Assembly: GCA_038400315.1 (NCBI GenBank)
Contig: CP151667.1
Location: forward strand, 1,747,174-1,811,173
Origin: Isosphaeraceae bacterium EP7
GTDB lineage: Bacteria; Planctomycetota; Planctomycetia; Isosphaerales; Isosphaeraceae
Direction of reading: 5' to 3'
DNA length: 64,000 nucleotides
Part shown: positions 10,813 through 26,709 of the stretch, in pieces
Layout: each line of letters begins with the position of its first letter
Numbering within the stretch: the first letter of the stretch is position 1
Position numbers and translations under genes: made by a program
Notes under the pieces: generated by a model
Seen by the model: only the letters and a program-made list of their open reading frames with translations
The model's database searches: none
Told to the model about the DNA's origin: nothing

Positions 10813-10982
10813 TCGGCCGGGCGGGCATGGCCCACCTTCACATCGGTAGGATCAAGAGCCAATCGGGCTTACGTCGGGAGAGAACTCGCTCCCCCCTTGA
10901 GGTTTCGAAGCTCCTGAGTAAGATGAGTCGTGTCTGAAGTGAGCCGACGTTCGTCTGGCGTGCCTCTCCTTTTTTTTCCTCG

Positions 10983-11006
10983 ACTTTGTGAAACAGTTCA
11001 CAAAGT
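10983..11006. promoter_or_regulatory. Rex-type operator upstream of nuoA
   Basis: A perfect inverted repeat: ACTTTGTGAA, ACAG, TTCACAAAGT. The core TTGTGAA-N4-TTCACAA (10986-11003) is exactly the consensus bound by the redox-sensing repressor Rex, which leaves DNA when NADH is high. Rex controls the nuo operon in Streptomyces. The site ends 22 nt before the nuoA ATG. A possible promoter, TTGAGG-N16-TAAGAT (10897-10924), lies upstream. No rex gene is in the window. Confidence 0.75.
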
Positions 11007-11028
11007 TGGCGCGAACCGTTGAGGGGTC

Positions 11029-11463
11029 ATGGGCACCGAGTTCACGCCGATCTTCGTCTTCATCCTCGTCGCCTTGATGACCGGGGTGGGGATGCTCGTC
11101 TCGAGTGCCCTGATCGGGCCCAAGAAGAAGACGGCCGTCAAGCAGATGCCGTACGAGTCGGGCATGGACCCGATCGGCGACGCCAAGCAGCGGTTCGACG
11201 TCCGCTACTACCTCGTCGCCATCGTCTTCCTGCTCTTCGACGTGGAACTCCTGTTCCTCTATCCCTGGGCCGTGGCCCAGTGGAGCTTCAAGACGGCCGC
11301 CCAGATCGCGAATGAGGGCGGCGCCGCGGCATCGGCCGTGGCCGGCGTGGGCATCCCCCCCGAGTTCCGCGGCCTGGTCTTCGGCGAGATCATGGTCTTC
11401 ATCGTCGTCCTGGTGGCGGCCTTCGCCTACGCCTGGCGCAAGGGAGTCTTCGAATGGCGTTGA
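11029..11463 (+). CDS. nuoA: NADH-quinone oxidoreductase subunit A
   Basis: 144 residues with three membrane helices ([55 protein letters not shown]). The conserved [12 protein letters not shown] motif identifies NuoA of complex I, a membrane-arm subunit at the junction with the hydrophilic arm. Residues between helices 2 and 3 include a small Ala/Gly insertion. GAGGGG precedes the ATG. The last codons overlap the nuoB ATG by 10 nt (11454-11463), so translation is coupled. First gene of the 14-gene nuo operon. Confidence 0.96.
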
Positions 11464-12143
11464 ACATTGCCCCGGCCAAAGCGGGCAGCACCGCCGTGGC
11501 TCTCGGGTCCTCGGCCGACGCCGAAATTCCCGAGAACATCATCCTCACGTCGCTCGACGCGGTCGTGAACTGGTGCCGCAAGAACAGCCTCTGGCCCATG
11601 CCATTCGCCACCGCCTGCTGCGGGATCGAGCTGATGGCCGTCGGCGCCAGCCGGTTCGACATCGCCCGGTTCGGCGCCGAGGTCATGCGGTTCAGCCCCA
11701 GGCAGTGCGACCTGCTCATCGTCGCCGGCCGCGTCAGCATGAAGATGCTGCCGGTGCTCCAGCGCATCTGGCTGCAGATGCCCGAGCCCAAGTGGTCGAT
11801 CAGCATGGGCGCCTGCGCCTCGACCGGCGGGATCTTCGACACTTACGCCGTGGTGCAGGGCGTCGACCGATTCATCCCCGTGGATGTCTACATCCCCGGC
11901 TGCCCCCCCAGGCCCGAGCAGATCCTCAGGGCCGTCATGGACCTGCAAGCCAAGGTCCAGAGTGGTGGCACGCTCGCCGGTAACAGCGGCCTGCCCGAGC
12001 TGCTCGAACGCGAGAAGATGCTCGTCGAGAAGCGGACCCTCCCCATCGGCTTCGCCCTCACGCCCGAGCGTGGCGACGAGGAGCGATTCGGCACCAGGGC
12101 GCCCGGCGGCGAGGCCCCGGTCGGCCGCGACGAGACGAAGTAA
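11454..12143 (+). CDS. nuoB: NADH-quinone oxidoreductase subunit B
   Basis: 229 residues. NuoB carries cluster N2, the last Fe-S centre before quinone. Its ligands are visible: the adjacent Cys pair in [11 protein letters not shown], Cys in [10 protein letters not shown] and Cys in [11 protein letters not shown]. The C-terminus beyond about residue 175 is longer than usual and charged ([20 protein letters not shown], then a Gly/Glu-rich tail). The ATG overlaps nuoA. Second gene of the operon. Confidence 0.97.
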
Positions 12144-12213
12144 CGACCCGAATCGCCCCGACGCCCGACGCGGGCCGGCCCGAACCGACAGACACACGGG
12201 AGCAGCCAGACGG

Positions 12214-12750
12214 ATGAGCGCCTCGACCGAGACTGAGACCGACGACCGCCATGCCTCGACCTTCGCGACCCTCTCGAAGGTGTTCGGCGACGGCGTCTTC
12301 TCCACCTCGCGATCCCGCGGCAACGTCCGCCTTTTCGTCCCCAAGGAGCGGCTCATCCCGCTGCTGACCACCCTCAAGGACGAGTGCGGGTTCTCGATGC
12401 TCGTCGAGCTCGGCGGGGTCGATTATCTAGGCTACCCGGGCCACACCCGCAGCCGGTTCGAGGTCCACTACGTCGTCAAGAACCTCGACACCACCGAGCA
12501 GCTCATCATCAAGGTTGGGGTCGACGACCCGGCCCCGTCGATTCCTTCGGTCTACCCGCTCTGGCGGGGTGCCGACTGGATGGAACGCGAGGTCTACGAC
12601 ATGTACGGGATCACGTTCGATGGTCACCCCGACCTCAGACGAATCCTGATGCCCGACGAGTTCACCGCCTTCCCGCTCCGCAAGGATTACCCCCTGCGTG
12701 GCCGAGGCGAGCGGCACAACTTCCCCAGGCTGACGCGCGAGAACTCGTGA
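12214..12750 (+). CDS. nuoC: NADH-quinone oxidoreductase subunit C
   Basis: 178 residues from ATG 12214. The 30-kDa subunit signature is clear: [20 protein letters not shown] followed by RRILMPDEF and [11 protein letters not shown]. NuoC is part of the hydrophilic arm and packs against NuoD near the quinone cavity. It is a separate gene here, not fused to nuoD as in E. coli. The frame remains open upstream into nuoB, but the ATG with GGGAGCAG in front is the sensible start. Confidence 0.95.
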
Positions 12751-12832
12751 CCAGGGCCGGACTCCCCGCCGGCCCCCCTCAACCGAACATCGACGCCCGA
12801 CCGCCCCGTCTCGTCCCCAGGTGCGACCCACA

Positions 12833-14053
12833 ATGCCGGCGAACTTGCTCGACGATCCCGAGCTCGAAGCAGAGTCCAAGCCCTACCTCTGGACCTTGAA
12901 CTTCGGCCCGCAGCACCCGGCCACTCACACGACGCTGCGCCTGGTCCTCGACCTGGATGGCGAGCGCATCGTCCGCGCCACGCCGCACATCGGCTACCTG
13001 CACTCCGGGTTCGAGAAGCTCGGCGAGCACCTCAACTTCAACCAGTACGTCACGGTCGTCGACCGCAAGAACTACATCAGCCCGCCGATGAACGAGGTGG
13101 CCTGGCACAACGCCGTGGAGAAGCTCCTCGACATCGAGCTGACCAAGCGTTGCCAGTACATCCGGGTCATCATCGGCGAGCTGGCCCGCATCAGCGACCA
13201 CCTTCTGTGTACGGGCGCCGCGGCGCTCGACCTGGGGGCGTTCACCGCCTTCCTCTTCGCGTTCAATCAGCGTGAGCTGATCTACGACGTCTACGAGGAG
13301 ATGTCGGGCTACAGGTTCCACCCCGGCTACACCCGGGTCGGCGGCCTGATGTACGACTTCAACGACAAGGTGATCGGCCGGATCCGCAAGTTCCTCGACG
13401 CCATGCCCCGCGTCCTGTCGGACATGGAGAAGCTGCTCTTCCGCAACAAGATCTTCCTGGACCGGATGAGGGGCGTCGGCACGCTCAGCCGCGAAGACGC
13501 GATCAACTTCTCCGCCAGCGGCCCCATCGCCCGCGCCAGCGGCGTGACGTACGACCTCCGCAAGGACGAGCCGTACCTGGCCTACAACGACTTCGACTTC
13601 ATCGTCCCCTATGCCACCGAGGGCGACTGCTACGCCCGGTTCCAGGTGCGCATGGAGGAGATGGTCCAGAGCATCTCGATCGTCAAGCAGGCCATCGAGA
13701 ACCTCCCCTCCGGCCCGTACAACGTGCCGATCGCCGAGAAGTTCCCGCTGCCCGACAAGGGGACCTCCTACAACAGCATGGAAGGCCTGATCCAGCACTT
13801 CGAGCTGATCATGCCCAACCGGGGCCTGGAGTCGCCCAAGGACGAGATCTACGCGGCCATCGAGTCGCCCAACGGCGAGCTCGGCTATTATCTCGTCACC
13901 GACGGCAGCAAGACCGCCTGGCGGACCCGGACCAGGCCCCCCTCTTACATCCACTTCCAGGTCTTCCCGCACATCATCAAGGATCACCTGCTGGCCGACA
14001 TCGTGGCCGTGCTCGGCAGCCTGAACATCATCGCCGCCGAGCTCGACCGCTAG
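12833..14053 (+). CDS. nuoD: NADH-quinone oxidoreductase subunit D
   Basis: 406 residues from ATG 12833; an in-frame GTG at 12821 would add four residues. The 49-kDa subunit forms the quinone pocket with NuoB. Characteristic segments are LNFGPQHPATHTTLRLVLDL, PHIGYLHSGFEKLGE, the quinone-site Tyr in NQYVTVVDRKNYISPPMNE, and the C-terminal region LLADIVAVLGSLNIIAAELDR. The protein is homologous to the large subunit of [NiFe] hydrogenases but lacks the metal Cys residues, as expected of complex I. Confidence 0.97.
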   Translation: MPANLLDDPELEAESKPYLWTLNFGPQHPATHTTLRLVLDLDGERIVRATPHIGYLHSGFEKLGEHLNFNQYVTVVDRKNYISPPMNEVAWHNAVEKLLDIELTKRCQYIRVIIGELARISDHLLCTGAAALDLGAFTAFLFAFNQRELIYDVYEEMSGYRFHPGYTRVGGLMYDFNDKVIGRIRKFLDAMPRVLSDMEKLLFRNKIFLDRMRGVGTLSREDAINFSASGPIARASGVTYDLRKDEPYLAYNDFDFIVPYATEGDCYARFQVRMEEMVQSISIVKQAIENLPSGPYNVPIAEKFPLPDKGTSYNSMEGLIQHFELIMPNRGLESPKDEIYAAIESPNGELGYYLVTDGSKTAWRTRTRPPSYIHFQVFPHIIKDHLLADIVAVLGSLNIIAAELDR

Positions 14054-14127
14054 GTCGACCCGACGCAGCGACGACCTGACATTCCTTCGAACGGCCGAAC
14101 CGACCGACTTCCCCAGGACCTCACTCG

Positions 14128-14625
14128 ATGCCCGCCGAAGTGACAAGCCCGATGCTCAGCGAGGCGATCCGCGACAAGATCCGCGCCTTCATCCCGCGCT
14201 ACCCGAGCAAGCGGGCCGTCACGCTCCCCGCGCTGCACATCGTCCACGAGCACTTCCGCTGCGTCCCGTTCCAGGCCATGGCCGAGATCGCCGAGATCCT
14301 CGAACTGGCGCCGGCCGAAGTGCACGACACAATGAGCTTCTACGGGTTCTTCCCGCAGGCCCCCATCGGCGAGAAGCGCCTCTGGGTCTGCCGGTCGATC
14401 TCGTGCATGCTCCGCGGTGGCGACGAGACCCTCGAAGTCGTCTGCAAGAAGCTGGGAATCCACAACGCCGAGACCACCGCCGACGGCAAGCTGAGCGTCG
14501 AGTTCGCCGAATGCCTCGGCATCTGCGACTTCGCCCCGGCCGCCCTCTGCGACACCGGCAAGATCTACGGCCCGCTCGAGACCGAGGCCCAGGTCGACGC
14601 CATGCTCGAAGACCTCGGCCGCTAG
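14128..14625 (+). CDS. nuoE: NADH-quinone oxidoreductase subunit E
   Basis: 165 residues. The 24-kDa subunit binds the off-path [2Fe-2S] cluster N1a. Ligand Cys residues are in WVCRSISCMLRGG and ECLGICDFAPA. The N-terminal helical domain (YPSKRAVTLPALHIVHEHF) is normal for the family. It works with NuoF in the NADH dehydrogenase module. Between this gene and nuoF sits an inverted-repeat element (14634-14688). Confidence 0.96.
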   Translation: MPAEVTSPMLSEAIRDKIRAFIPRYPSKRAVTLPALHIVHEHFRCVPFQAMAEIAEILELAPAEVHDTMSFYGFFPQAPIGEKRLWVCRSISCMLRGGDETLEVVCKKLGIHNAETTADGKLSVEFAECLGICDFAPAALCDTGKIYGPLETEAQVDAMLEDLGR

Positions 14626-14633
14626 CCCGACAA

Positions 14634-14688
14634 GGGAAAATGGGGACCGGCTCCGCAGCGAAGTGAAGGTGCCTGTCCCCTTTTTCCC
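14634..14688. repeat. REP-like inverted repeat between nuoE and nuoF
   Basis: Arms of 21 nt begin GGGAAAATGGGGACCGGCTC (14634) and, as the reverse complement of the right arm, GGGAAAAAGGGGACAGGCAC (ending 14688). Only three positions differ over 21. The loop is about 13 nt. Related GAAATGGGGAC units occur at 45331-45360. This looks like a dispersed palindromic repeat that has landed inside the operon, leaving an RNA hairpin about 110 nt before the nuoF start. Confidence 0.65.
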
Positions 14689-14798
14689 GCCCGACTCAAT
14701 TGCAGCCCGCACACACGACCCCGCACGAGACGAGACGGCCCAGGCACGCGACCGAACGCCCCGCGCGACCGCCCGCCGCCAGGCAGGAGATTGACCCT

Positions 14799-16196
14799 TT
14801 GGCCGCATTCGAACCGGTCCTCTCCCGAAACTGGGACGTCCCCGATAGCCACACGCTGGGCGTCTACGAGTCCCGCGGCGGCTACCAGTCGGCGCGCAAG
14901 GTCCTCTCGTCGATGTCGCCCGACGACGTCGTCAACCTCGTCAAAGCGAGCGAGCTGCGGGGCCGCGGCGGCGCGGGCTTCCCCTGCGGCCTGAAGTGGT
15001 CGTTCCTGCCGAAAGACCGGCAGGAGACCCTCATGTGCATCAACGCCGACGAGAGCGAGCCGGCGACGTTCAACAACCGGATCCTCATGGAGGCTGACCC
15101 CCATCAGCTCATCGAGGGGATCCTCATCTCCTGCTTCGCCACCAAGGCGACCGCCGCCTACCTCTACGTCCGGTTCGAGTACATCCACGCCTACCGCATC
15201 CTCGAGCAGGCCATCAAAGAGGCCCGCGACGCCGGACTGCTGGGCAACAACATCCTGGGCTCGGGCTACAACCTGGAGATCTGGGTCCACCGGGGTGCCG
15301 GCGCCTACATCTGCGGCGAGGAGACCGGCCTGATCGAGAGCCTGGAAGGCAAGCGGGGCTGGCCCCGGATCAAGCCGCCGTTCCCGGCCATCGAGGGAGC
15401 CTTCCGCAAGCCGACGGTCGTCAACAATGTTGAGACCCTCTGCTGCGTCCCCCACATCGTCGAGCGCGGGGCCGACTGGTTCAAGTCGATCGGCACGCCC
15501 AAGAGCTATGGCCCCAAGCTGTATTGCATCTCGGGCCATGTGAACAAGCAGGTCTGCGTCGAGCTGCCGCTGGGCGCCACCACCAATCAGCTCATCGAGG
15601 ATCACGCCGGCGGCGTCTGGAAGGGCCGCAAGGCCAAGGCCGCCGTCCCGGGCGGGATCAGCATGGGCCTGTTGTCGGCCGCCGAGCTGGATGTCCCGCT
15701 CGACTTCGAGGCCCTCCGCTCAACCGGCTGCCTCGGGCTGGGGACCGCCGCGGTCACCGTCATGGACGACCAGACGCGGATCATCGATTACCTGTACAAC
15801 ACCGCCCGCTTCTTCGCCCACGAGAGCTGCGGCCAGTGCACCCCCTGCCGCGAGGGGACCGCCTGGATCTACAAGGCGATCAAGCGAATTCGCAACGGCG
15901 GCGGGCGGATCGAAGACCTCGACACGCTCGGCCACCTCTCGGCCAACATGGGCATCATGCCCGGCACCACCATCTGCGGGCTGGCCGACGGCGCCGCCTG
16001 GCCGCTCAAGAATGCCCTGGCCAAGTTCAGGCCCGAGCTCGAAGAGTTCATCCGAGACCATCAGTCGCCCGACTACGCCGTGACCCCGCTGCAGCAGGCC
16101 ATCTCCAACGGCACACCGGGCGACGCGGCGGTCGCCAACTACCTGCCGGTGATCAGCGCCCCAGGGTCGATCCTCCGATCGCCCGAGAGCCGCTGA
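14799..16196 (+). CDS. nuoF: NADH-quinone oxidoreductase subunit F
   Basis: 465 residues if translation starts at TTG 14799, which has AGGAG 9 nt upstream and gives the usual NuoF N-terminus (EPVLSRNWDVPDSHTLGVYE). An earlier TTG at 14700 lies next to a repeat hairpin and has no ribosome site. NuoF holds the NADH site and FMN: RGRGGAGFPCGLKW and GAGAYICGEETGLIESLEG. It also binds a [4Fe-4S] cluster through HESCGQCTPCREGTAW and the later Cys in GTTICGLADG. It is the electron entry point of complex I. Confidence 0.94.
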   Translation: MAAFEPVLSRNWDVPDSHTLGVYESRGGYQSARKVLSSMSPDDVVNLVKASELRGRGGAGFPCGLKWSFLPKDRQETLMCINADESEPATFNNRILMEADPHQLIEGILISCFATKATAAYLYVRFEYIHAYRILEQAIKEARDAGLLGNNILGSGYNLEIWVHRGAGAYICGEETGLIESLEGKRGWPRIKPPFPAIEGAFRKPTVVNNVETLCCVPHIVERGADWFKSIGTPKSYGPKLYCISGHVNKQVCVELPLGATTNQLIEDHAGGVWKGRKAKAAVPGGISMGLLSAAELDVPLDFEALRSTGCLGLGTAAVTVMDDQTRIIDYLYNTARFFAHESCGQCTPCREGTAWIYKAIKRIRNGGGRIEDLDTLGHLSANMGIMPGTTICGLADGAAWPLKNALAKFRPELEEFIRDHQSPDYAVTPLQQAISNGTPGDAAVANYLPVISAPGSILRSPESR

Positions 16197-16272
16197 CCCG
16201 CCTGGACAGGCACGAACGCAAGGCCGCCGAACACCCGACCAACGACCCGACGCGAGACAGGGAACACGCCCG

Positions 16273-18045
16273 ATGGCGACGATCCTCATCAACGGCCAGG
16301 AATACCCCCTCCCCGAGGGGGAGAAGCTCAACGCCATCCAGGCCGCCCAGCGCATCGGGGTCGAGATCCCCTACTACTGCTGGCACCCCTCCCTCTCCGT
16401 CGTGGCCAACTGCCGGATGTGCGAGATCGAGGTCGGCTCGAAGGACCCGAAGACCGGCGAGATCCGGATGGTCCCGAAGCTCGTCCCCGGCTGCCAGACG
16501 CCGGCCAAGGACGGGACCGTCCTTGTCACCGACAGCCCCAAGGTCGTCGAGCATCAGCGGATGATCATGGAGCTGCTGCTCCTGAATCACCCGCTCGACT
16601 GCCCCGTCTGCGACCAGGCCGGCGAGTGCGGCCTGCAAGACTACAGCTACTCCAACGGCCAGGCCGTCCACCGGTTCGTCGAGGAACGGGTGGTCAACCC
16701 CCGCAAGGAGGTCGCCGAGACCATCCAGCTGAACGCGGACCGGTGCATCATGTGCACCCGCTGCGTCCGCTTCACCCGCGAGATCACCCATACCGGCGAG
16801 CTGCAGGTCATCAGCCGCGGCAGTCACGCCGAGATCGACATCTTCCCCGGCCACCCCGTCGCCAATGCCCTGGCCGGCAATGTGGTCGACCTCTGCCCGG
16901 TCGGGGCCCTGCTCGACAAGGACTTCCTCCACAAGCAGCGCGTCTGGTTCCTGTCCAAGCACGACGGCGTTTGCACCCGCTGCTCCACCGGCTGCAACAT
17001 CAGCTCCGAGGAGAATCGCGGCGAGATCTGGCGGTTCAAGCCTCGCAACAATCCGCTGGTCAACGACTACTGGATCTGCGACGAGGGCCGATACAGCTAC
17101 AAGTCGGCCAACGACCCCAGCCTGCTCACGGCCATGTACGCCCGGATCGGCAACGAGCTGGGCCCGGTCCTGACCGACCAGGCGCTCAAGTCGGCCGGCC
17201 AGGAACTGACCAAGGTCGCCAGCGAAGGCGGAAAGATCGCCGCCGTGATCTCGCCGTTCCTGACGGTCGAAGAAGCCTACCTGCTCGCCGGTTACATCAA
17301 GGGCCTCAGCCCCGACGCCGTGCTCGCCCTCGGAGCAGTCCCGGTGGTGGGCGAAGACCAGACGTTCACGCCCGACAAGGTCAAGGGGCGTAACGGCGAC
17401 ACCAGCTTCCTGGACCCGAAGCCGTTCACGATCCACGCCGAGAAGTGCCCGAACCGCAAGGGTGTTGAGGCCGTGCTCGCCCACTTCCAGGGCGAGGTGA
17501 TCGACTTCAACGCCCTGACGGGGCGGATCGCCGCCGGCGAGTTCAAGGCCCTGTACTACACCTCGGGCTCGCCCGACCTCTGGGCCGATGAAGAGGCCGC
17601 CCGATCCTTGCGATCAGGCGTCAGCTACCTCGTCGTCCAGGACACTCTCGTCACGCCGCTGGCACAACTGGCGGACGTGGTGCTGGCCTCGGCCACATTT
17701 GCCGAGAAGGCCGGCAGTTACGTTAATGCCGACGGCCGGTTGCAGTATGCCGAAGCGGCCCTACCGCCCCGCGACGGCAGCCTGCCCGACCTGGACATCC
17801 TGGCGATCCTCGGCGGCCGCTCCGGCGGGCCGGTGGAATCGTCGGCGGTTCTCGCCGAGCTGGCCGCCAAGATCCCGGCGTTCGGCGTCGCCGCGGGCGG
17901 CAAGCTGCCGACCTACGGCGCCTTGCTAGGTGACGCACCCGCGCCTTTGCCGACCAATGGCGACGCGCCGACCCCGTTCATCGACGCCTGGTCCAAGACC
18001 AGGGCCCAGATCGGCACCCGCTCCGGCGCGGGCGCCACCCGCTGA
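16273..18045 (+). CDS. nuoG: NADH-quinone oxidoreductase subunit G
   Basis: 590 residues. The N-terminal ferredoxin-like domain has [2Fe-2S] Cys in IPYYCWHPSLSVVANCRMCE and PGCQTPA. The His-ligated cluster region is HPLDCPVCDQAGECGLQDY. Two [4Fe-4S] sites are CIMCTRCVRF and LCPVGALL. A further CTRCSTGCN motif opens the molybdopterin-oxidoreductase-like domain. That C-terminal domain is short (about 330 residues) compared with the roughly 900-residue E. coli protein, and nearer the size of many other bacterial NuoG proteins. ATG 16273 is 76 nt after nuoF. Confidence 0.95.
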   Translation: MATILINGQEYPLPEGEKLNAIQAAQRIGVEIPYYCWHPSLSVVANCRMCEIEVGSKDPKTGEIRMVPKLVPGCQTPAKDGTVLVTDSPKVVEHQRMIMELLLLNHPLDCPVCDQAGECGLQDYSYSNGQAVHRFVEERVVNPRKEVAETIQLNADRCIMCTRCVRFTREITHTGELQVISRGSHAEIDIFPGHPVANALAGNVVDLCPVGALLDKDFLHKQRVWFLSKHDGVCTRCSTGCNISSEENRGEIWRFKPRNNPLVNDYWICDEGRYSYKSANDPSLLTAMYARIGNELGPVLTDQALKSAGQELTKVASEGGKIAAVISPFLTVEEAYLLAGYIKGLSPDAVLALGAVPVVGEDQTFTPDKVKGRNGDTSFLDPKPFTIHAEKCPNRKGVEAVLAHFQGEVIDFNALTGRIAAGEFKALYYTSGSPDLWADEEAARSLRSGVSYLVVQDTLVTPLAQLADVVLASATFAEKAGSYVNADGRLQYAEAALPPRDGSLPDLDILAILGGRSGGPVESSAVLAELAAKIPAFGVAAGGKLPTYGALLGDAPAPLPTNGDAPTPFIDAWSKTRAQIGTRSGAGATR

Positions 18046-18124
18046 CACGTCGGCCCGGCCGGCGCCCCGACGGGCGTCGGCCTTGCCCGGTCCCTCGCGA
18101 ACCGTCCTCAGAGGTGAGTCTCCC

Positions 18125-19180
18125 ATGTCGTTCTGGGCCCTGGTGGCAATCCTGTTCAAGATCGGCGTGGTCGTCGGCATCACCCAAGGGGCGGTGGCCT
18201 ACCTGATCCTCGTCGAGCGTAAGATCGCCGCCTGGGCGCAGGACCGCATCGGGCCCAACCGCGCGGGCCCGTTCGGCCTGCTCCAGCCGCTGGCCGACGG
18301 CGCCAAGATGATCCTCAAGGAAGACGTGGTCCCTGGCTACGTCGCCAAGCCGCTGTTCATCCTGGCCCCGCTCATCTCGATCGTGGCGGCCATGGTCGGC
18401 TTCGCGGTCGTCCCCTTCGGCCCCGTCACCCCGATGCCCGCCGACCCCGGGTTCTTCGACGTCCTGGGCCAGTTCCAGATCGCCCCGGGCGTGGACATCG
18501 GCATCCTGTATATCCTCGCCGTCGGCAGCCTGGGCGTGTACGGCGTGATCCTGGCCGGCTGGGCGTCCAACTCCAAGTACTCATTCCTGGGCGGGTTGCG
18601 CTCGAGCGCGCAGCTCATCAGCTACGAGATCCCGCTGGGGATGTCGATCCTGGGCATGGTCATGATCGCCGGCTCGCTCGACCTGAACACGATCGTCAAC
18701 TGGCAGGACCGCCACGTCTGGGGCATCGTCGCCCAGCCGCTGGGGTTCCTCCTGTTCCTGATCAGCTCGTTCGCCGAGACCAACCGCCTGCCGTTCGACC
18801 TTCCCGAGTCGGAGCAGGAGCTCGTCGGCGGGTTCCACACCGAATACTCGGCCATGAAGTTCGGCATGTTCTTTCTGGGCGAATATCTGCACGTCATCAC
18901 GGTCAGCTACCTGATCGTCATCCTGTTCTTCGGCGGCTGGGATATTCCCTACGTCTTGACCCAGGACCAGACCGGCCTCGTCTTTGCACTGATCAAGGCA
19001 GGCGTCCTGGTGTTCAAAGTGGCACTGGTGATCATCTTCATCATGTGGATCCGCTGGACCCTTCCCAGGTTCCGGTACGACACCCTGATGGAGCTGGCCT
19101 GGAAACGGATGATCCCTCTGTCCATCGCCAACTTGGTTCTGACGGCCATCGTCGTGCAGATCGTCCGCTCCTGGGCCTGA
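18125..19180 (+). CDS. nuoH: NADH-quinone oxidoreductase subunit H
   Basis: 351 residues, about eight membrane helices. NuoH forms the quinone entry tunnel. Signature stretches are ERKIAAWAQDRIGPNRAGPF near the N-terminus and the loop FAETNRLPFDLPESEQELVG followed by GFHTEYSAMKF. The start is ATG 18125 behind AGAGGTGAG; the frame upstream overlaps nuoG and has no ribosome site. Confidence 0.96.
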   Translation: MSFWALVAILFKIGVVVGITQGAVAYLILVERKIAAWAQDRIGPNRAGPFGLLQPLADGAKMILKEDVVPGYVAKPLFILAPLISIVAAMVGFAVVPFGPVTPMPADPGFFDVLGQFQIAPGVDIGILYILAVGSLGVYGVILAGWASNSKYSFLGGLRSSAQLISYEIPLGMSILGMVMIAGSLDLNTIVNWQDRHVWGIVAQPLGFLLFLISSFAETNRLPFDLPESEQELVGGFHTEYSAMKFGMFFLGEYLHVITVSYLIVILFFGGWDIPYVLTQDQTGLVFALIKAGVLVFKVALVIIFIMWIRWTLPRFRYDTLMELAWKRMIPLSIANLVLTAIVVQIVRSWA

Positions 19181-19239
19181 GCCCGAGCCGTCCTAACGAA
19201 ACGAACCCGAGCGTTCCGCAAACGGAGCTGGAGACGGCC

Positions 19240-19839
19240 GTGCGACCCGATGACCCTAGCCTGAAGCGGATGATCCCGCCGACCCTGAAGCTTCACGAGA
19301 AGTTCTACCTCCCGCAGATCGTCGGCGGCCTGCTCGTCACCGGCAAGCACATCCTGTCGGCCTCGCTGGGCAAGGGGGCCATCACGGTCTCGTACCCCGA
19401 GGACCAGCACGTCCCGTCGGCCAACTATCGCGGCGTGCACCGGCTGAACAAGGACGAGCAGGGGCGGGTCAAGTGCGTGGCCTGCATGCTCTGCGCCACG
19501 GCCTGCCCGGCGCACTGCATCGACATCGTCGGCGCCACCGCCCCGGAATCCTGGTCCGACCGCGAGAAGTACTGCGAGAGCTTCGTCATCGACGAGCTTC
19601 GCTGCATCTATTGCGGGATGTGCGAGGAAGCCTGCCCGGTCGAGGCGATCGAGCTGACCGGCCTGTATGACTTGACCGGCCTGTCTCGCGAACAGATGAT
19701 CTTCGACAAGACCAAGCTCCTCTCCGTCTTCGACCTGACCCGCGACGCCGAGCCGATGCGGTACACCACGCCGCCCCCCAAGGCCGGCCCGCGCCCGACC
19801 GAGGTCGAGCCATCGGGCCTCCCCGGCCCCAAGGCCTGA
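19240..19839 (+). CDS. nuoI: NADH-quinone oxidoreductase subunit I
   Basis: 199 residues from GTG 19240, which has GGAG 6 nt upstream; the longer open frame back to 19045 overlaps nuoH and is unlikely to be coding. NuoI carries two [4Fe-4S] clusters, N6a and N6b: CVACMLCATACPAHC and CIYCGMCEEACPVEA. The C-terminal tail is Pro-rich. It links the FMN side of the Fe-S chain to NuoB. Confidence 0.95.
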   Translation: MRPDDPSLKRMIPPTLKLHEKFYLPQIVGGLLVTGKHILSASLGKGAITVSYPEDQHVPSANYRGVHRLNKDEQGRVKCVACMLCATACPAHCIDIVGATAPESWSDREKYCESFVIDELRCIYCGMCEEACPVEAIELTGLYDLTGLSREQMIFDKTKLLSVFDLTRDAEPMRYTTPPPKAGPRPTEVEPSGLPGPKA

Positions 19840-19908
19840 CGGCCTGACTGGCATCTCCAACCACCGAACGCCGAAGCGACCGCCCCGAGATCGAAGGACC
19901 CAGACGCC

Positions 19909-20757
19909 GTGAACATCCCCACCTTCGAACTGGTCGTCGCTCTGCTGAGCATCGCGCTGGGGGCCGTCGGCACGTCGATGCTGCTGCCCCACCAGCACGG
20001 CCGCCTGAGCACCCGGCAGGCCTATACGCTGGGCGGCTCGCTCGTCGGGGCCTCGATCCTGCTACTGGCCCTGCTCTGGAAGCCGACGGGCTTCGGGCTC
20101 ATCCCCGGCCTCTTCTTCTATGTCCTGGGCATCGCCTCGGTGGCCGGCGCGATCCTGAGCATCACCAGCCGAGACCCCATCTACAGCGCCCTCTGGTTCG
20201 CCTGGGTGGTGCTCTCGACCTCGGGCCTGTTCCTGCTGGCCGGGGCCCAGTTCCTGGCCGCCGGCACGATCATCGTCTATGCAGGGGCGATCATCGTCAC
20301 GTTCCTGTTCGTGATCATGCTGGCCCAGAAGGAAGGGCAGGCGACCTATGACCGGTCGGCCCGCTCGCCGTTCCAGTCGACCTTCTGCTGCTTCCTGCTG
20401 CTCTGGTCGCTGACCTACGCCCTGCTCGTCGCTCGGTCGCCGGCCCTGGCGCCGGCCGCGGGCCCGTCAACGGCCGTGGCCTCGTCCACGAACTGGCTCA
20501 TCCCGGGCAACGAGATCGGCGTGAGGAGCAAGGCGAGGGCTGGCCAGGGGATCAACCTGGTGCTCGCCCGCTCGCTCAGCCCGACATCCAGGCTCAACTC
20601 GCCGCACGTGGCGGGCCTCGGCGGCACGCTCTACACCGACCACCTGGTCACCATCGAGCTGGCCGGGGCCCTGCTGTTCGTCGGCCTCGTCGGCGCCGTG
20701 GCGATCGCCGCCCCGAAGCCGCAGATCCGGCCGGCCAACGCCCCGCACACGTACTGA
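19909..20757 (+). CDS. nuoJ: NADH-quinone oxidoreductase subunit J
   Basis: 282 residues from GTG 19909 with GAAGGA upstream. NuoJ core features are AVWFAW-like SALWFAWVVLSTSGLFLLAG and GTIIVYAGAIIVTFLFVIML. At least five hydrophobic segments are present. It is about 100 residues longer than E. coli NuoJ. Part of the excess is a long polar stretch between the fourth and last helix (about residues 175-245) and part is an extra N-terminal helix pair. Place in the operon is canonical, between nuoI and nuoK. Confidence 0.92.
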   Translation: MNIPTFELVVALLSIALGAVGTSMLLPHQHGRLSTRQAYTLGGSLVGASILLLALLWKPTGFGLIPGLFFYVLGIASVAGAILSITSRDPIYSALWFAWVVLSTSGLFLLAGAQFLAAGTIIVYAGAIIVTFLFVIMLAQKEGQATYDRSARSPFQSTFCCFLLLWSLTYALLVARSPALAPAAGPSTAVASSTNWLIPGNEIGVRSKARAGQGINLVLARSLSPTSRLNSPHVAGLGGTLYTDHLVTIELAGALLFVGLVGAVAIAAPKPQIRPANAPHTY

Positions 20758-20804
20758 ATCGCACCGGCTCCCTTCCCACCCGAACCAATGCGAGCGACCG
20801 ACCC

Positions 20805-21263
20805 GTGAGCATGTTCAGCGAAGACATGTTGGTCAATTACCTGATGATCGGCGCCGCGCTGATGGCGTTGGGGATGCTGGGCTTCCTCTCGCGTCGCAAC
20901 ATGATCGTCATGTTCCTGTCGGCCGAGATGATGCTCCAGGGCGTCGCCACCACCCTCATCGCGTTCGGCCGCTACCACGGCAACTGGACCGGTCAGGTCT
21001 TCACCATCATCATCCTGACCGTCGCCGCCTGCGAGGCGTCGATCGCCCTGGCCCTGATCATGGGGCTGTTCAACCGCAGGAACTCGCTCGACGTGACCCT
21101 CTGGCAGGACGTCCGCGAGCCGGGCACGCTGCCGCACGTTGACGCCGCCAGCGAGGCCGAGCCGCTCGTCGCGGAGCCGGGCCCCGAGACCTACCCGCAC
21201 CTCACGCCCGCGGGCATCGAGCCGGCCCACCCGGCGCAGCCCTGGATGAAGCGGCGGAGCTGA
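20805..21263 (+). CDS. nuoK: NADH-quinone oxidoreductase subunit K
   Basis: 152 residues from GTG 20805 (ATG 20811 is also possible). The first 100 residues are standard NuoK with three helices and the conserved membrane Glu residues in SAEMMLQGV and AACEASIALALI. A C-terminal extension of about 50 residues rich in Glu, Pro and Ala follows; most NuoK proteins stop near 100. The extension is soluble and has no recognised motif. Confidence 0.93.
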   Translation: MSMFSEDMLVNYLMIGAALMALGMLGFLSRRNMIVMFLSAEMMLQGVATTLIAFGRYHGNWTGQVFTIIILTVAACEASIALALIMGLFNRRNSLDVTLWQDVREPGTLPHVDAASEAEPLVAEPGPETYPHLTPAGIEPAHPAQPWMKRRS

Positions 21264-21355
21264 CGGCCCTTTTTCGATCGCGGCGAGACTCGAACGCGCG
21301 ACGGTTGGCGGAATGACCCCGGGCCCGACGCGGCCGGGATGGGAGCGGAGGTCCG

Positions 21356-23368
21356 ATGAGCGTCCTGGTCCGGAACTGCTGGCTAGTCCCCTTCCTGCCC
21401 CTGCTGGGCGGCCTCGTCGCCGCGCTCGGCGGCAACCGCCTGAAGGAGAAGGCCCACCTGCCGGTCGCCCTCGGCATCGGCCTGGCGTTCCTCTACTCCC
21501 TCGGCCTGCTCTTCTCCGCCGACCACCCGGCCAGCACGGTTGTGTATGACTGGATCAACGTCACCGGCCTGACCGTCCCGGTCGAGTTCCGGGTCGACGG
21601 ACTGACGACGATGATGCTGTCGATGGTGACCTTCGTCGCCACGCTCGTCGTCATCTTCGCCGGCGGGTACATGCACGGCGACCCCGGATACACCCGGTTC
21701 TTCGCCATCGTCGGGCTGTTCGTGGCCTCGATGACCGGCCTGGTGCTGTCGAGCCACTTCATCCTGACCTACGCCTTCTGGGAGGGCGTCGGTGTTTGCA
21801 GCTACCTGCTGATCGGCTTCTGGCACTCGAAGCCGTCGGCCGCCGCCGCCGCCAAGAAGGCGTTCATGGTCAACCGGGTCGGCGACCTCGGCTTTGCCAT
21901 CGCCATCTTCTGGATGTGGTCGAAGGGGATCGGCCACAGCCTCTCCTACGACTCATTCCTCGGTCCCGAGAACCTGGCCGCCCTGGCCACCTCAGACAAG
22001 GTGGGCATCGCCTTGCTGCTCTTCTGGGCGGCCACCGCCAAGAGCGCGCAGGTCCCGCTCTACGTCTGGCTTCCCGACGCCATGGAAGGGCCGACGCCCG
22101 TCTCGGCGCTCATCCATGCCGCGACGATGGTCACCGCGGGCGTCTACCTCATCGCCCGGTCGAGCCTGCTCGTGGCCGCCGTCCCCGGCGTCCAGCTCCT
22201 CATCTGCATCACTGGCTGTGTGACGGCCCTGCTCGCCGCCGCCATCGCGCTGACCCAGACGGATCTCAAGCGGGTGATGGCCTATTCGACGGTCAGCCAG
22301 CTCGGGTTCATGTTCATGGCCCTGGGCGCCGGCTACGGCACCGTTGGCCGGCTGGCGGTCGTCGCGGCGATGTTCCACCTGTTCACGCACGCGTTCTTCA
22401 AGGCCCTGCTGTTCCTGGCGTCCGGCAGCGTGATGCACGCCATGGGGGGCGTCATCGACATGAGGCGGTTCTCGGGCCTGCGCCACAAGCTGCCGATCAC
22501 CCACTGGACCTTCCTGGTCGGCGCGCTCTCGCTCTGCGGGATCTTCCCGCTGGCCGGCTTCTGGAGCAAGGATGAGATCCTGGCCGCCCTGAACGAGGCC
22601 TCGCACGTCGCCAAGGCGGCCGGCCTGCCCGGATACGGGGCGGCCTACGCGGCGATCTACTGGACGGCCCTGTTCACCGCGTTCCTCACCGCCTTCTACA
22701 CCGGCCGGGCCTACTTCCTCACCTTCTGGGGCCCCGAGAAGCTGCCCAGCCCCGATGATCCCGAGGCCGAGCCGGACGACGGTCACGGGCACGGCCATGA
22801 CGACGGACACGATGCCCACCACGTCGGGCACGAGTCGCCGCCGTCGATGACCTACCCGCTGATCGTGCTGGCCTTGTGCACGGTGGTCGTCGGCCTGGCC
22901 TTCGGCCCGACCCACCTGTTCGAGCACCACCTGCTGCACACCCCCGGGTTCGAGACCACGCTCGGCCACCCTGAGCATGCTCACGGCACCGACTGGCAGA
23001 GCGTGATCCTGGGCTCGATCGTCGGCATCACCGGGTTCGCCATCAGCTACGTGCTCTACGGCAAGCGCAGCCCCGTGCCGGCGCAGCTCGCCGGCCGGTT
23101 CAGCGGGCTCTACCGGGCCTCATACAACAAGTTCAGGATCGACGAGGCGTATACGGCCCTGGTCATCGGGCCGACCGCGGTGCTCGCCTCGATCGCCCAG
23201 TTCTTCGACACCTACGTGATCGACACCCTGGTCGCGGCCGTCTCCTGGATCCCCCGCCTGGCGGGTCGATTCGTGCTCGGGCCGTACCAGAATGGCCTGA
23301 TCCAGTTCTATGCAGGGGCCACGGCGATCTGTGTCGCAGGGCTGCTCTTCCTGTTCCTGCTTTATTGA
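21356..23368 (+). CDS. nuoL: NADH-quinone oxidoreductase subunit L
   Basis: 670 residues, a Mrp-type antiporter-like proton pump subunit with about 16 membrane helices. Conserved parts are YAFWEGVGVCSYLLIGFW, KAFMVNRVGDLGFAI, VPLYVWLPDAMEGPTPVSAL and LTQTDLKRVMAYSTVSQLGF. Between late helices (about residues 465-490) lies a His/Asp/Gly-rich loop (DDGHGHGHDDGHDAHHVGHE) that could bind metal. GGAGG precedes ATG 21356. Confidence 0.96.
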   Translation: MSVLVRNCWLVPFLPLLGGLVAALGGNRLKEKAHLPVALGIGLAFLYSLGLLFSADHPASTVVYDWINVTGLTVPVEFRVDGLTTMMLSMVTFVATLVVIFAGGYMHGDPGYTRFFAIVGLFVASMTGLVLSSHFILTYAFWEGVGVCSYLLIGFWHSKPSAAAAAKKAFMVNRVGDLGFAIAIFWMWSKGIGHSLSYDSFLGPENLAALATSDKVGIALLLFWAATAKSAQVPLYVWLPDAMEGPTPVSALIHAATMVTAGVYLIARSSLLVAAVPGVQLLICITGCVTALLAAAIALTQTDLKRVMAYSTVSQLGFMFMALGAGYGTVGRLAVVAAMFHLFTHAFFKALLFLASGSVMHAMGGVIDMRRFSGLRHKLPITHWTFLVGALSLCGIFPLAGFWSKDEILAALNEASHVAKAAGLPGYGAAYAAIYWTALFTAFLTAFYTGRAYFLTFWGPEKLPSPDDPEAEPDDGHGHGHDDGHDAHHVGHESPPSMTYPLIVLALCTVVVGLAFGPTHLFEHHLLHTPGFETTLGHPEHAHGTDWQSVILGSIVGITGFAISYVLYGKRSPVPAQLAGRFSGLYRASYNKFRIDEAYTALVIGPTAVLASIAQFFDTYVIDTLVAAVSWIPRLAGRFVLGPYQNGLIQFYAGATAICVAGLLFLFLLY

Positions 23369-23437
23369 CTTGAGCGTGGGCGTCGTTCCTCCATTGATCG
23401 AACCGAAGCTGCGTCTGAAGGGGTCGAGGGCCGCTTG

Positions 23438-25114
23438 ATGTCCACACTCTTATTGATCACTGTGCTCATCCCCCTGGCGGGGAGCGTGCTGCTCTTCAGC
23501 CGGCAAGACCTGCCCGCGGCCACCGCGCGGATGATTGCCCTGGGAGTTGCGCTGGGCACGCTCGCCCTGTCGCTCGTCTTCGTGTTCGCCTTCGGCGTCG
23601 ACACGGCGGGGCCGCAGTTCGCCTACAAGGCGGAGGATGGACACCTGGGCTACCCCTGGCTGGTCAGGCCCGACGTCCGGTTCGCCCTGGGCCTGGACGG
23701 CGTGGCACTCTCATTGTTCGCCCTCACGTCGCTGCTGATGATCACGGCGATCTTCTCGTCGTGGGAGTCGATTAAGGAGCGGGCGGCCGTCCACTATGCG
23801 TTGCTGCTGGCGCTCGAAACCGGGCTGCTGGGGCTCTTCGCCAGCCTGGACGTGGTCCTCTTCTACGTCTTCTTCGAGTTCACGCTCATCCCGCTCTTCT
23901 TCCTGATCGGCCTGTACGGCGGCCCCGACCGGCGCCGGGCGTCGGTCACGTTCTTCCTGTACACGCTGGCGGGCAGCCTGCTGACCCTGCTGGGCGTGAT
24001 CGCCCTGGTGGCGATCAACTACCAGTACAACCCCAGCCACACGCTGACCTTCTCCATCGCCGAGCTGACCGAAGGGCTCGCCCATGTCGAGTGGGGCGCC
24101 TGGAACCTGTCGTCGAGCTGGACGACCAGCCCGCAGGCGCTCATCTTCCTGCTCCTCTTCGCCGGGTTCGCCATCAAAGTGCCGCTCTTCCCGTTCCACA
24201 CCTGGCTGCCGCTGGCGCACGTCGAGGCGCCCACCGCGGGCTCGATCCTGCTGGCCGGCGTCATGCTCAAGGTCGGCGGCTATGGCTTCCTCCGGTTCAA
24301 CCTGGGGATGACCCCGCTCGGCCTTCACCTGCTGTTCCCGATGCTCGCCGTGCTGTCGGTCGCCGGCATTCTGTACGGGGCGCTGGCAGCTTTGGCCCAG
24401 TCGGACATCAAGCGGCTGGTGGCGTACAGCTCGGTCAGCCACATGGGGTTCATCGCCCTGGGCCTGTTCTCCGCGACGCCCACGGGCATCGAGGGGGCCG
24501 TCATTCAGATGATCAACCACGGCCTGACGACGGGCGCCCTGTTCGCCTGCGTGGGCATCGTCTATGAGCGGTACCACACCCGCGAGATGTCGCAGATCGG
24601 CGGGCTCTGGAACCGGATGCCGGTCTTCGCCTTCTTCCTGATCATGGCGTCGCTGGGCTCGGCCGCCTTGCCCGGCCTGAACGGGTTCACCGGCGAGTTC
24701 CCGATCCTCATCGGCATGTACTCCGCCTGGCCGGCCGCCGCGGTCTGGGCCGCGTTGGGTATGGTCCTGGGAGCCTACTACCTGCTCTCGATGCTGCAAC
24801 GCGTGCTGTTCGGCCCCTTGAAGGAGCCCGGCGGTCACGACCACGGTCATGCACCGGCCGGCGAGCACGGCGTCGACACCCACGAGGCGCCCCGGCCGCT
24901 GGGCTGGCATGAGATCGCCGGCCTGACGCCCTTGATCGTCCTGATCGTCTGGATCGGCATCGCCCCGAACATGATCTTCTCCCGCATCCGTCCGTCCGTT
25001 CAGCTCGTCGAGGCGAGGCTTCTGGCCACCGCGCCCGCCAAGGCCGTCGCGGCCATCGCCCCGACCCAGGCCACGACCCCGAAGACGGCACTCGCCCAGG
25101 ACACGGCCCGATGA
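23438..25114 (+). CDS. nuoM: NADH-quinone oxidoreductase subunit M
   Basis: 558 residues from ATG 23438. It is another antiporter-like proton-pumping subunit. Markers are FYVFFEFTLIPLFFLIGLYG, KVPLFPFHTWLPLAHVEAPT, ALAQSDIKRLVAYSSVSHMG and AALPGLNGFTGEF. A short His-rich loop, GGHDHGHAPAGEHGVDTHE, sits near residue 475, similar in character to the one in nuoL. Its stop codon overlaps the nuoN start (ATGA). Confidence 0.96.
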   Translation: MSTLLLITVLIPLAGSVLLFSRQDLPAATARMIALGVALGTLALSLVFVFAFGVDTAGPQFAYKAEDGHLGYPWLVRPDVRFALGLDGVALSLFALTSLLMITAIFSSWESIKERAAVHYALLLALETGLLGLFASLDVVLFYVFFEFTLIPLFFLIGLYGGPDRRRASVTFFLYTLAGSLLTLLGVIALVAINYQYNPSHTLTFSIAELTEGLAHVEWGAWNLSSSWTTSPQALIFLLLFAGFAIKVPLFPFHTWLPLAHVEAPTAGSILLAGVMLKVGGYGFLRFNLGMTPLGLHLLFPMLAVLSVAGILYGALAALAQSDIKRLVAYSSVSHMGFIALGLFSATPTGIEGAVIQMINHGLTTGALFACVGIVYERYHTREMSQIGGLWNRMPVFAFFLIMASLGSAALPGLNGFTGEFPILIGMYSAWPAAAVWAALGMVLGAYYLLSMLQRVLFGPLKEPGGHDHGHAPAGEHGVDTHEAPRPLGWHEIAGLTPLIVLIVWIGIAPNMIFSRIRPSVQLVEARLLATAPAKAVAAIAPTQATTPKTALAQDTAR

Positions 25115-26709
25115 CCGCCACCTACGCGCTCGAAGTCGCCCACAGGACGCTGATCATCCTGGCGCCCGAGATCATCCTGCTGGCCGTCGCCACGGCCATG
25201 ATGACCGCCGGCGCGTTCATCAAGCGACCAAGGCACTTCTGGTCGATCCTGTCCGCGGGCACCCTCGTCTTCGCCATCATCCCGCTGTTCCTGCACCGGA
25301 ACGCGGGGGTCGACATTTATGCGTCGACCGTCCTGAACGACCCGCTCTCGGGCTATTCGAGGCTCTTCTTCCTGCTCACCGGCCTGATCGTGCTGGCCCT
25401 GGCCCACGACCAGGTCGACGACGCCCGGGCCCCAGAGTTCTTCGGCTCGCTGCTGATGATCCACGCGGGCGCCATGATCGTCGCGGCGTCCAATGAGCTG
25501 GTCCTGATGTTCGTCGGCCTCGAACTGATCAGCATCCCGACCTACCTGCTCCTGTACCTGCTGAAGCGGACCTCGGCCACGCAGGAAGCCGCCACCAAGT
25601 ACTTCTTCCTGAGCATCTTCTCGTCGGCCCTGCTGCTGTATGGGATGGCCTACCTCTACGGCCTGACCGGCGTGAGCAACCTCAAGGGGATAGCAAACCT
25701 GGTCGAGTATGCCCCCGGCGTGCCGAACCCGCAGCTTGCCCTCATCGCGCTGGTCTTCATCATGGCGGGCCTGGGCTTCCGCGTCGCCGCGGTCCCGTTC
25801 CACTTCTATGCCCCCGACGTCTACCAAGCCTCGCCGACGATCCTGACGGCCGTGCTGGCCTGGATCCCCAAGGCGGTCGGGTTCCTGGCGATCATCCGCA
25901 TTCTCATCTGCGTGCTCGCCGGCGCGGGCGTCGAGAACCCGACGGTCGATAAGGCGATTACGCTGGCCTGGATCATCGCGGCCATCACGATGACCCTGGG
26001 CAACACGGTCGCGCTCGGGCAGGAGAACCTCAAGCGGTTGTTCGCCTATTCGTCGATCGCCCACGCGGGCTACTTGATGATCGGAGTGGCGGTCGCGTTC
26101 CGCACCCGGCCCGGCTCGACGGGCATCTACCTGGGCATCGAGGGGATTCTCTTCTACCTCTTCGCCTACGCGTTGATGACCCTGGGTGCCTTCGGGGTGA
26201 TCCTGGCGGCCAACACCGGCAATCAGGCCGTCGAGAACGTGGACGACCTCTCCGGGCTGGGCCAGTCGCAGCCGTTGCTGGCGCTCGCCATGACGATCTG
26301 CCTGTTCAGCCTGGTGGGCATCCCGGGTCTCGCGGGCTTCTGGGGCAAGTTCAGCATCTTCGGCGCGGCGTTCTCGGCGGGCCCGGTGGCCGACACCCGG
26401 ATGCTGCAAGTCCTGACGGTCATCGCCGTCCTGAACTCGGCGGCCGGGGCGTATTACTACCTCCGGATCGTCGTGAACATGTACCTGAAGCCGGCCCGCA
26501 TCCCGCATGAGCTGCGAATCCCGTTGCCGACCGCCCTCGCCATCGGCGCCTGCGCCTCGCTGACCCTGATCCTGGGAATCTTCCCCGGCTCGATCATCCG
26601 GATCACCCACGAGTCGGCCGTCGCGGCCCTGAGCCACCCGGTTCCCGAGTCATTGCCCGCCGGCGAGGTCGCTCCGGTGACCGTCGTCACTCCGGTCACG
26701 GCTCGCTGA
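25111..26709 (+). CDS. nuoN: NADH-quinone oxidoreductase subunit N
   Basis: 532 residues. It is the third antiporter-like subunit and the last gene of the operon. Conserved motifs are LMFVGLELISIPTYLLLYLL, GLGFRVAAVPFHFYAPDVYQ, LGQENLKRLFAYSSIAHAGY and FSLVGIPGLAGFWGKFSIF. ATG 25111 overlaps the nuoM stop codon by 4 nt. A strong hairpin follows 28 nt downstream. Confidence 0.96.
   Translation: MTATYALEVAHRTLIILAPEIILLAVATAMMTAGAFIKRPRHFWSILSAGTLVFAIIPLFLHRNAGVDIYASTVLNDPLSGYSRLFFLLTGLIVLALAHDQVDDARAPEFFGSLLMIHAGAMIVAASNELVLMFVGLELISIPTYLLLYLLKRTSATQEAATKYFFLSIFSSALLLYGMAYLYGLTGVSNLKGIANLVEYAPGVPNPQLALIALVFIMAGLGFRVAAVPFHFYAPDVYQASPTILTAVLAWIPKAVGFLAIIRILICVLAGAGVENPTVDKAITLAWIIAAITMTLGNTVALGQENLKRLFAYSSIAHAGYLMIGVAVAFRTRPGSTGIYLGIEGILFYLFAYALMTLGAFGVILAANTGNQAVENVDDLSGLGQSQPLLALAMTICLFSLVGIPGLAGFWGKFSIFGAAFSAGPVADTRMLQVLTVIAVLNSAAGAYYYLRIVVNMYLKPARIPHELRIPLPTALAIGACASLTLILGIFPGSIIRITHESAVAALSHPVPESLPAGEVAPVTVVTPVTAR

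Follow-up and report, generated by a model that had tools for sequence, protein, structure and literature searches.

What binds the palindrome that stands directly before the nuo operon of Isosphaeraceae bacterium EP7, and how would binding at that place control complex I? In the window, by which we mean the whole 64,000-nucleotide stretch of DNA analysed here, the element takes the form ACTTTGTGAA-ACAG-TTCACAAAGT (in full, ACTTTGTGAAACAGTTCACAAAGT), with perfect arms of 10 bp each around a 4-nt spacer. The ATG of nuoA begins at 11029, leaving 22 nt between the two (11007–11028), and the sequence thus confirms both the arms and the distance given by the first-pass annotation of this DNA. Among the genes that follow in the operon, Pfam identifies nuoB (PF01058) and nuoD (PF00346). 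The features of the locus are collected in Table 1.

The palindrome is unique in its surroundings and in the genome. Within the window, the 18-mer core has a single match at up to three mismatches, namely the site itself with none, where 0.35 matches are expected from the shuffled window. A whole-genome search for TTGTGAAN4TTCACAA, which the first-pass annotation had proposed as a check, returned one exact site in 7,199,273 bases, the one before nuoA; the chance expectation for 14 fixed bases in 7.2 Mb is ~0.03 by our own arithmetic, assuming even base composition. The same genome contains no site with one mismatch, the next best carrying two, and the rex gene itself has neither an exact nor a one-mismatch site. 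We propose from these searches that the nuo operon is probably the single strong Rex target of this genome. The palindrome is not a chance occurrence, because it is conserved before nuoA across the family.

A Rex operator presupposes a Rex protein, and the first-pass annotation had named the absence of a rex gene as grounds for abandoning the idea. The genome carries one rex gene (C1:5195012), which overlaps the end of a gene read from its translation as ribD-like. The encoded protein passes the cut-offs of five NCBIfam models for Rex and can be aligned with solved Rex structures. Eight residues through which T. maritima Rex contacts DNA (Arg12, Ser33, Gln46, Arg48, Lys49, Gly58, Gly61 and Tyr64; PMC8836258) are the same in each of the 71 planctomycete Rex proteins examined. 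Ser52 and Arg60 of T. maritima Rex are excepted from the conserved contacts (PMC8836258), and planctomycete Rex also differs at these positions (mostly Ala and Pro), while Lys43 is variable.

Close relatives retain the palindrome upstream of nuoA, the other point on which the Rex reading had been made to depend. The exact site is found in 32 of 45 Isosphaeraceae genomes, exactly once in each, and all 30 family sites that could be located, the window's own included, lie before nuoA; rex itself was detected in 42 of these 45 genomes. Further afield, the site relaxes to approximately TTYGTGAN6TCACRAA. Across 49 other genomes with nuoA loci, rex is present in 16 of 20 that have a site before nuoA versus 4 of 29 that lack it (Fisher p = 5e-6, kinship ignored). 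A class-wide search for a tandem of T-tract and operator (T5, 4–12 bases, operator), split by comparing the lists of genomes with and without rex, gave 94 of 219 rex-positive versus 7 of 178 rex-negative Planctomycetia genomes (p = 2e-21, again ignoring kinship). Three of the seven exceptions belong to one family (f2) that is otherwise almost without rex, and these may be chance matches. Motif matches within coding sequence in the phylum search (for example, L199 and L200) were taken as chance. On this evidence the palindrome is very probably a Rex operator, as far as sequence comparison can tell.

Rex went undetected in four genomes with a nuoA site and in one with an nqrA site (G261). In the assemblies concerned (G261 at L262, and L109–L112), the operator precedes nqrA or nuoA, mostly together with a terminator hairpin, and either data are missing or another regulator is at work. 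G787, from the same genus as G261, carries rex as well as the nqrA tandem, pointing to missing sequence in the G261 assembly.

The motif also occurs before actA (alternative complex III), atpD, nqrA, a cluster for a Rieske-like protein and a predicted membrane protein. The Pfam search backs the assignment of atpD, nqrA and a multihaem cytochrome; it gave no family for the membrane protein, which we interpret as one for cytochrome c assembly. As a set these targets are respiratory, which fits Rex. Two Singulisphaera genomes have a second Rex-type site before a glycosyltransferase-like gene (L249:3001-3020 and L250:3001-3020), possibly an unusual Rex target.

The leader in which the operator sits has a recurrent order. 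When the family loci are aligned on the operator, a T-tract that ends ~10 bases before the core is nearly invariant, and the other flanks hardly align. Of 80 distinct nuoA loci, 79 have this tract before the operator, and in 72 it starts 16–18 nt before the core. This spacing is unbiased only outside L271–L300, the roughly one-quarter of loci drawn from a search whose pattern itself demanded T5 close to the operator; the loci outside that set have the same spacing. In most loci a G+C hairpin abuts the T-tract (median −11 kcal/mol and mean z −1.8 relative to shuffles over the 80 loci), and stems of many differing sequences retain their pairing there. A terminator was detected within the 250 nt preceding nuoA at 45 of 60 operator-bearing loci versus 3 of 32 that lack the operator (p = 8e-10). 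Upstream of the hairpin, 65% of loci have a promoter-like pair whose shuffle rank is 0.1 or better, compared with 10% expected. The usual order at nuoA is hence a promoter-like sequence ~60 nt upstream, terminator hairpin, T-tract and operator, best exemplified in Gemmata-like loci by TTGACG-N16-TACTAT, ~20 nt, CCTCGAC-loop-GTCGAGG, TTGTTTTTT, 7–8 nt and TTGTGAA. We are confident that the position of the operator behind a leader terminator is a conserved feature of the group.

The tandem lies before nuoA in nearly all loci of the class that were inspected. It also precedes nqrA, which encodes a subunit of the Na+-translocating NADH:quinone reductase, in eight further genomes from several planctomycete families, with the same spacing and, in most, a recognizable hairpin (L303, L307, L308, L309, L311, L312, L316 and L318). 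Elsewhere, at actA and the majority of the remaining targets, no terminator accompanies the operator, and two actA loci have a T-run and no clear hairpin. In the Isosphaeraceae, a natural series of promoter layouts (L054, L068 and L264) includes one genus that has rex and lacks both operator and terminator at nuoA, and G011, whose operator takes the classic position with no terminator.

Some Gemmata-like loci (L272, L275, L279, L298, L299 and L300) show a −10-like TANAAT ~6–8 nt after the operator, which at these loci could contain the −35 element of a second nuo promoter. As a general layout, a promoter downstream of the operator was rejected, since it fits only some Gemmata-like loci.

In the window's own leader the T8 tract and its 16-nt spacing are intact, and the candidate hairpin and promoter are imperfect. 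The predicted promoter is modest and places the operator core at about +56. The hairpin, imperfect and with a weak z, ends 3 nt before the T-tract and folds at −10.6 kcal/mol (z −1.19, or −2.3 when scored as a hairpin abutting the T-tract). Neither TTGAGG-16-TAAGAT nor the hairpin at 10936–10966 was reported when the window was scanned for promoters and terminators under strict criteria, so the case for the layout rests on the relatives, the window alone being insufficient. A search of the leader for RNA families gave no Rfam match beyond a chance microRNA match. The first-pass annotation had implied that Rex acts here as in Streptomyces. This part of it is not supported, as the sole promoter-like sequence lies upstream and the core follows a T-tract which forms part of a terminator in relatives.

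Table 1. Features of the nuo leader and operon in the window
Feature	Position	Strand	Remarks
Predicted −35 element, TTGAGG	10897–10902	+	Best promoter-like pair of the leader; 16-nt spacer; shuffle rank 0.03
Predicted −10 element, TAAGAT	10919–10924	+	Start site then near 10931; TATGAT or TACTAT at the corresponding place in relatives
Imperfect RNA hairpin	10936–10966	+	At the place of the relatives' terminator stem; 11 pairs, 2 mismatches, 1 bulge
T8 tract (U-tract of the putative terminator)	10970–10977	+	Begins 16 nt before the operator core; intact
Probable Rex-type operator, 10-bp arms	10983–11006	.	Core TTGTGAAACAGTTCACAA at 10986–11003
nuoA (NADH-quinone oxidoreductase subunit A)	11029–11463	+	First gene of the operon; Pfam PF00507 (E 4e-31) and NCBIfam
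nuoB to nuoN	11454–26709	+	13 more open frames in nuo order, read from translations

Because the operator stands at a fixed distance behind a leader terminator, Rex may stop RNA polymerase rather than cover a promoter. Transcription would start near 10931; the leader RNA would be short and carry a terminator hairpin followed by a U-tract, the operator starting just past the latter. At a low NADH/NAD+ ratio, we infer that the genome's own Rex would occupy the operator and halt the polymerase. A polymerase whose front edge meets Rex would have its active site ~14–18 nt upstream, the distance between its front edge and active site, and hence on the U-tract. The hairpin would then fold, the RNA would be released and the transcript would remain short. 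At high NADH, Rex would leave, the polymerase would read through the unassisted terminator, and the complex I made would re-oxidize NADH. Near-promoter roadblocks are leaky in E. coli (PMC4132739), so a hairpin at such a place would be useful. For assisted termination as the mode of action, which we infer from geometry, the odds are about even. The proposal that Rex at a fixed distance past the U-tract makes a leaky leader terminator efficient, at both nuo and nqr, may equally prove right or wrong. We put the probability of the whole reading, a Rex operator combined with roadblock-assisted termination in the nuo leader, at roughly 0.58. It has weak points: even in the absence of Rex, a strong terminator would hold nuo expression down, and where a second promoter-like sequence overlaps the operator, as in some Gemmata-like loci, classic repression would suffice.

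Ordinary repression, in which Rex blocks an unrecognized promoter at or just before the operator and the terminator merely ends or insulates upstream transcription, draws on these Gemmata-like overlaps and on classic placements elsewhere in the phylum. At actA (L260 and L266) and at nuoA of G011 (L264), the operator directly follows a −10 element and has no terminator. However, promoter-like sequences after the operator reach a shuffle rank of 0.1 in only 21% of loci, against the 65% upstream, and in several loci just 22–23 nt separate the core from the start of the nuoA match, so a promoter after the operator has no room there. The spacing of terminator and operator is also far too constant for an insulator, and loci without the operator mostly lack the terminator. 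We regard ordinary repression as unlikely, if well short of negligible. A plain roadblock is harder to tell apart, since the sequence hardly separates it from assisted termination: here the terminator works by itself, Rex halts polymerase anywhere, and the hairpin serves just to release polymerases stalled so near the promoter that Mfd cannot reach them. S. avermitilis Rex at wblE, bound from +108 to +135, is probably a roadblock (PMC5355995), and LacI placed 30–60 bp from a promoter lets more polymerases pass, possibly because sigma hinders Mfd (PMC4132739). The sole difference is whether termination at the hairpin needs Rex, and we consider the plain roadblock improbable.

Two further explanations dispense with Rex. 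CRP-type regulators recognize TGTGAN6TCACA. A CRP/FNR-type protein was considered because it shares this core with Rex, and the inner A/T pair is free in distant relatives (TGTGAN6TCACA). Nevertheless, the window and its family keep the Rex consensus in full, inner AA/TT included, and CGTGA variants are found among the Rex sites of S. avermitilis (PMC5355995). Strong HTH_Crp_2 matches are equally common in genomes with the site (7 of 20) and without it (9 of 29); across Planctomycetia, relatives of the site follow rex and not CRP-type regulators, which makes binding by the latter very improbable. Finally, the palindrome would be transcribed and, judging from its sequence, could fold, so it might serve as an RNA hairpin for stability or translation of the nuo leader. 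What is fixed, however, is the sequence of the palindrome and not pairing alone, whereas the hairpin just upstream varies and yet keeps its pairing; accordingly, we reject an RNA role almost entirely. One-sided arm changes in L069 and L070 and the recurrence of the motif before several unrelated operons at differing distances also speak against it. Assisted termination behind a Rex operator remains our preferred reading.

Several known systems resemble this arrangement in part. The Streptomyces ROP site (S. avermitilis nuoA1, cydA1, atpI and wblE; PMC5355995) shares with it the sequence TTGTGAAN4TTCACAA, nuo as a target and the regulator family, and at wblE the site likewise lies downstream of the start, where it is proposed to hinder polymerase. 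The S. avermitilis nuoA1 operator, however, spans −42 to −16 relative to the transcription start, over the promoter (PMC5355995), whereas the planctomycete site lies behind a leader terminator; moreover, S. avermitilis Rex has eleven direct targets including rex itself, compared with one exact site per genome in the window's family. Other bacterial repressors bound downstream of the transcription start halt elongating polymerase (PurR, GalR, ArsR, CcpA, CodY and LacI; PMC10310618, PMC4132739), but there release is credited to Mfd or Rho. Leader attenuators such as riboswitches and leader peptides also place a terminator between promoter and first gene, although the planctomycete leader has ~10–25 nt before the hairpin, too little to fit a sensor RNA or peptide, and no Rfam match.

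There is also a likeness, in layout though not in homology, to eukaryotic RNA polymerase I termination with Reb1/Nsi1, in which a hairpin, a T-rich stretch and a DNA-bound roadblock act together (PMC12366685). That system marks a constitutive gene end, whereas the planctomycete elements lie in a promoter-near leader under a metabolite-controlled protein. By analogy, the gated terminator could be a metabolite-controlled counterpart of the Pol I arrangement, kept across much of Planctomycetia, a view to which we give no more weight than to its opposite. Our literature search, weak evidence because subscription papers mostly lay outside it, found neither a bacterial intrinsic terminator at fixed spacing before a roadblock operator nor a described planctomycete Rex regulon.

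Rex control of complex I thus appears to reach planctomycetes, and in the Isosphaeraceae it shrinks to essentially one strong site. The tandem of terminator and operator precedes two unrelated NADH dehydrogenases, nuo and nqr, and would be a simple means of putting a constant promoter under a DNA-binding metabolite sensor. If the mechanism is true, it would be a DNA-based attenuator that needs no sensing RNA, and the clearing of roadblocked polymerases near promoters in bacteria would become directly testable.
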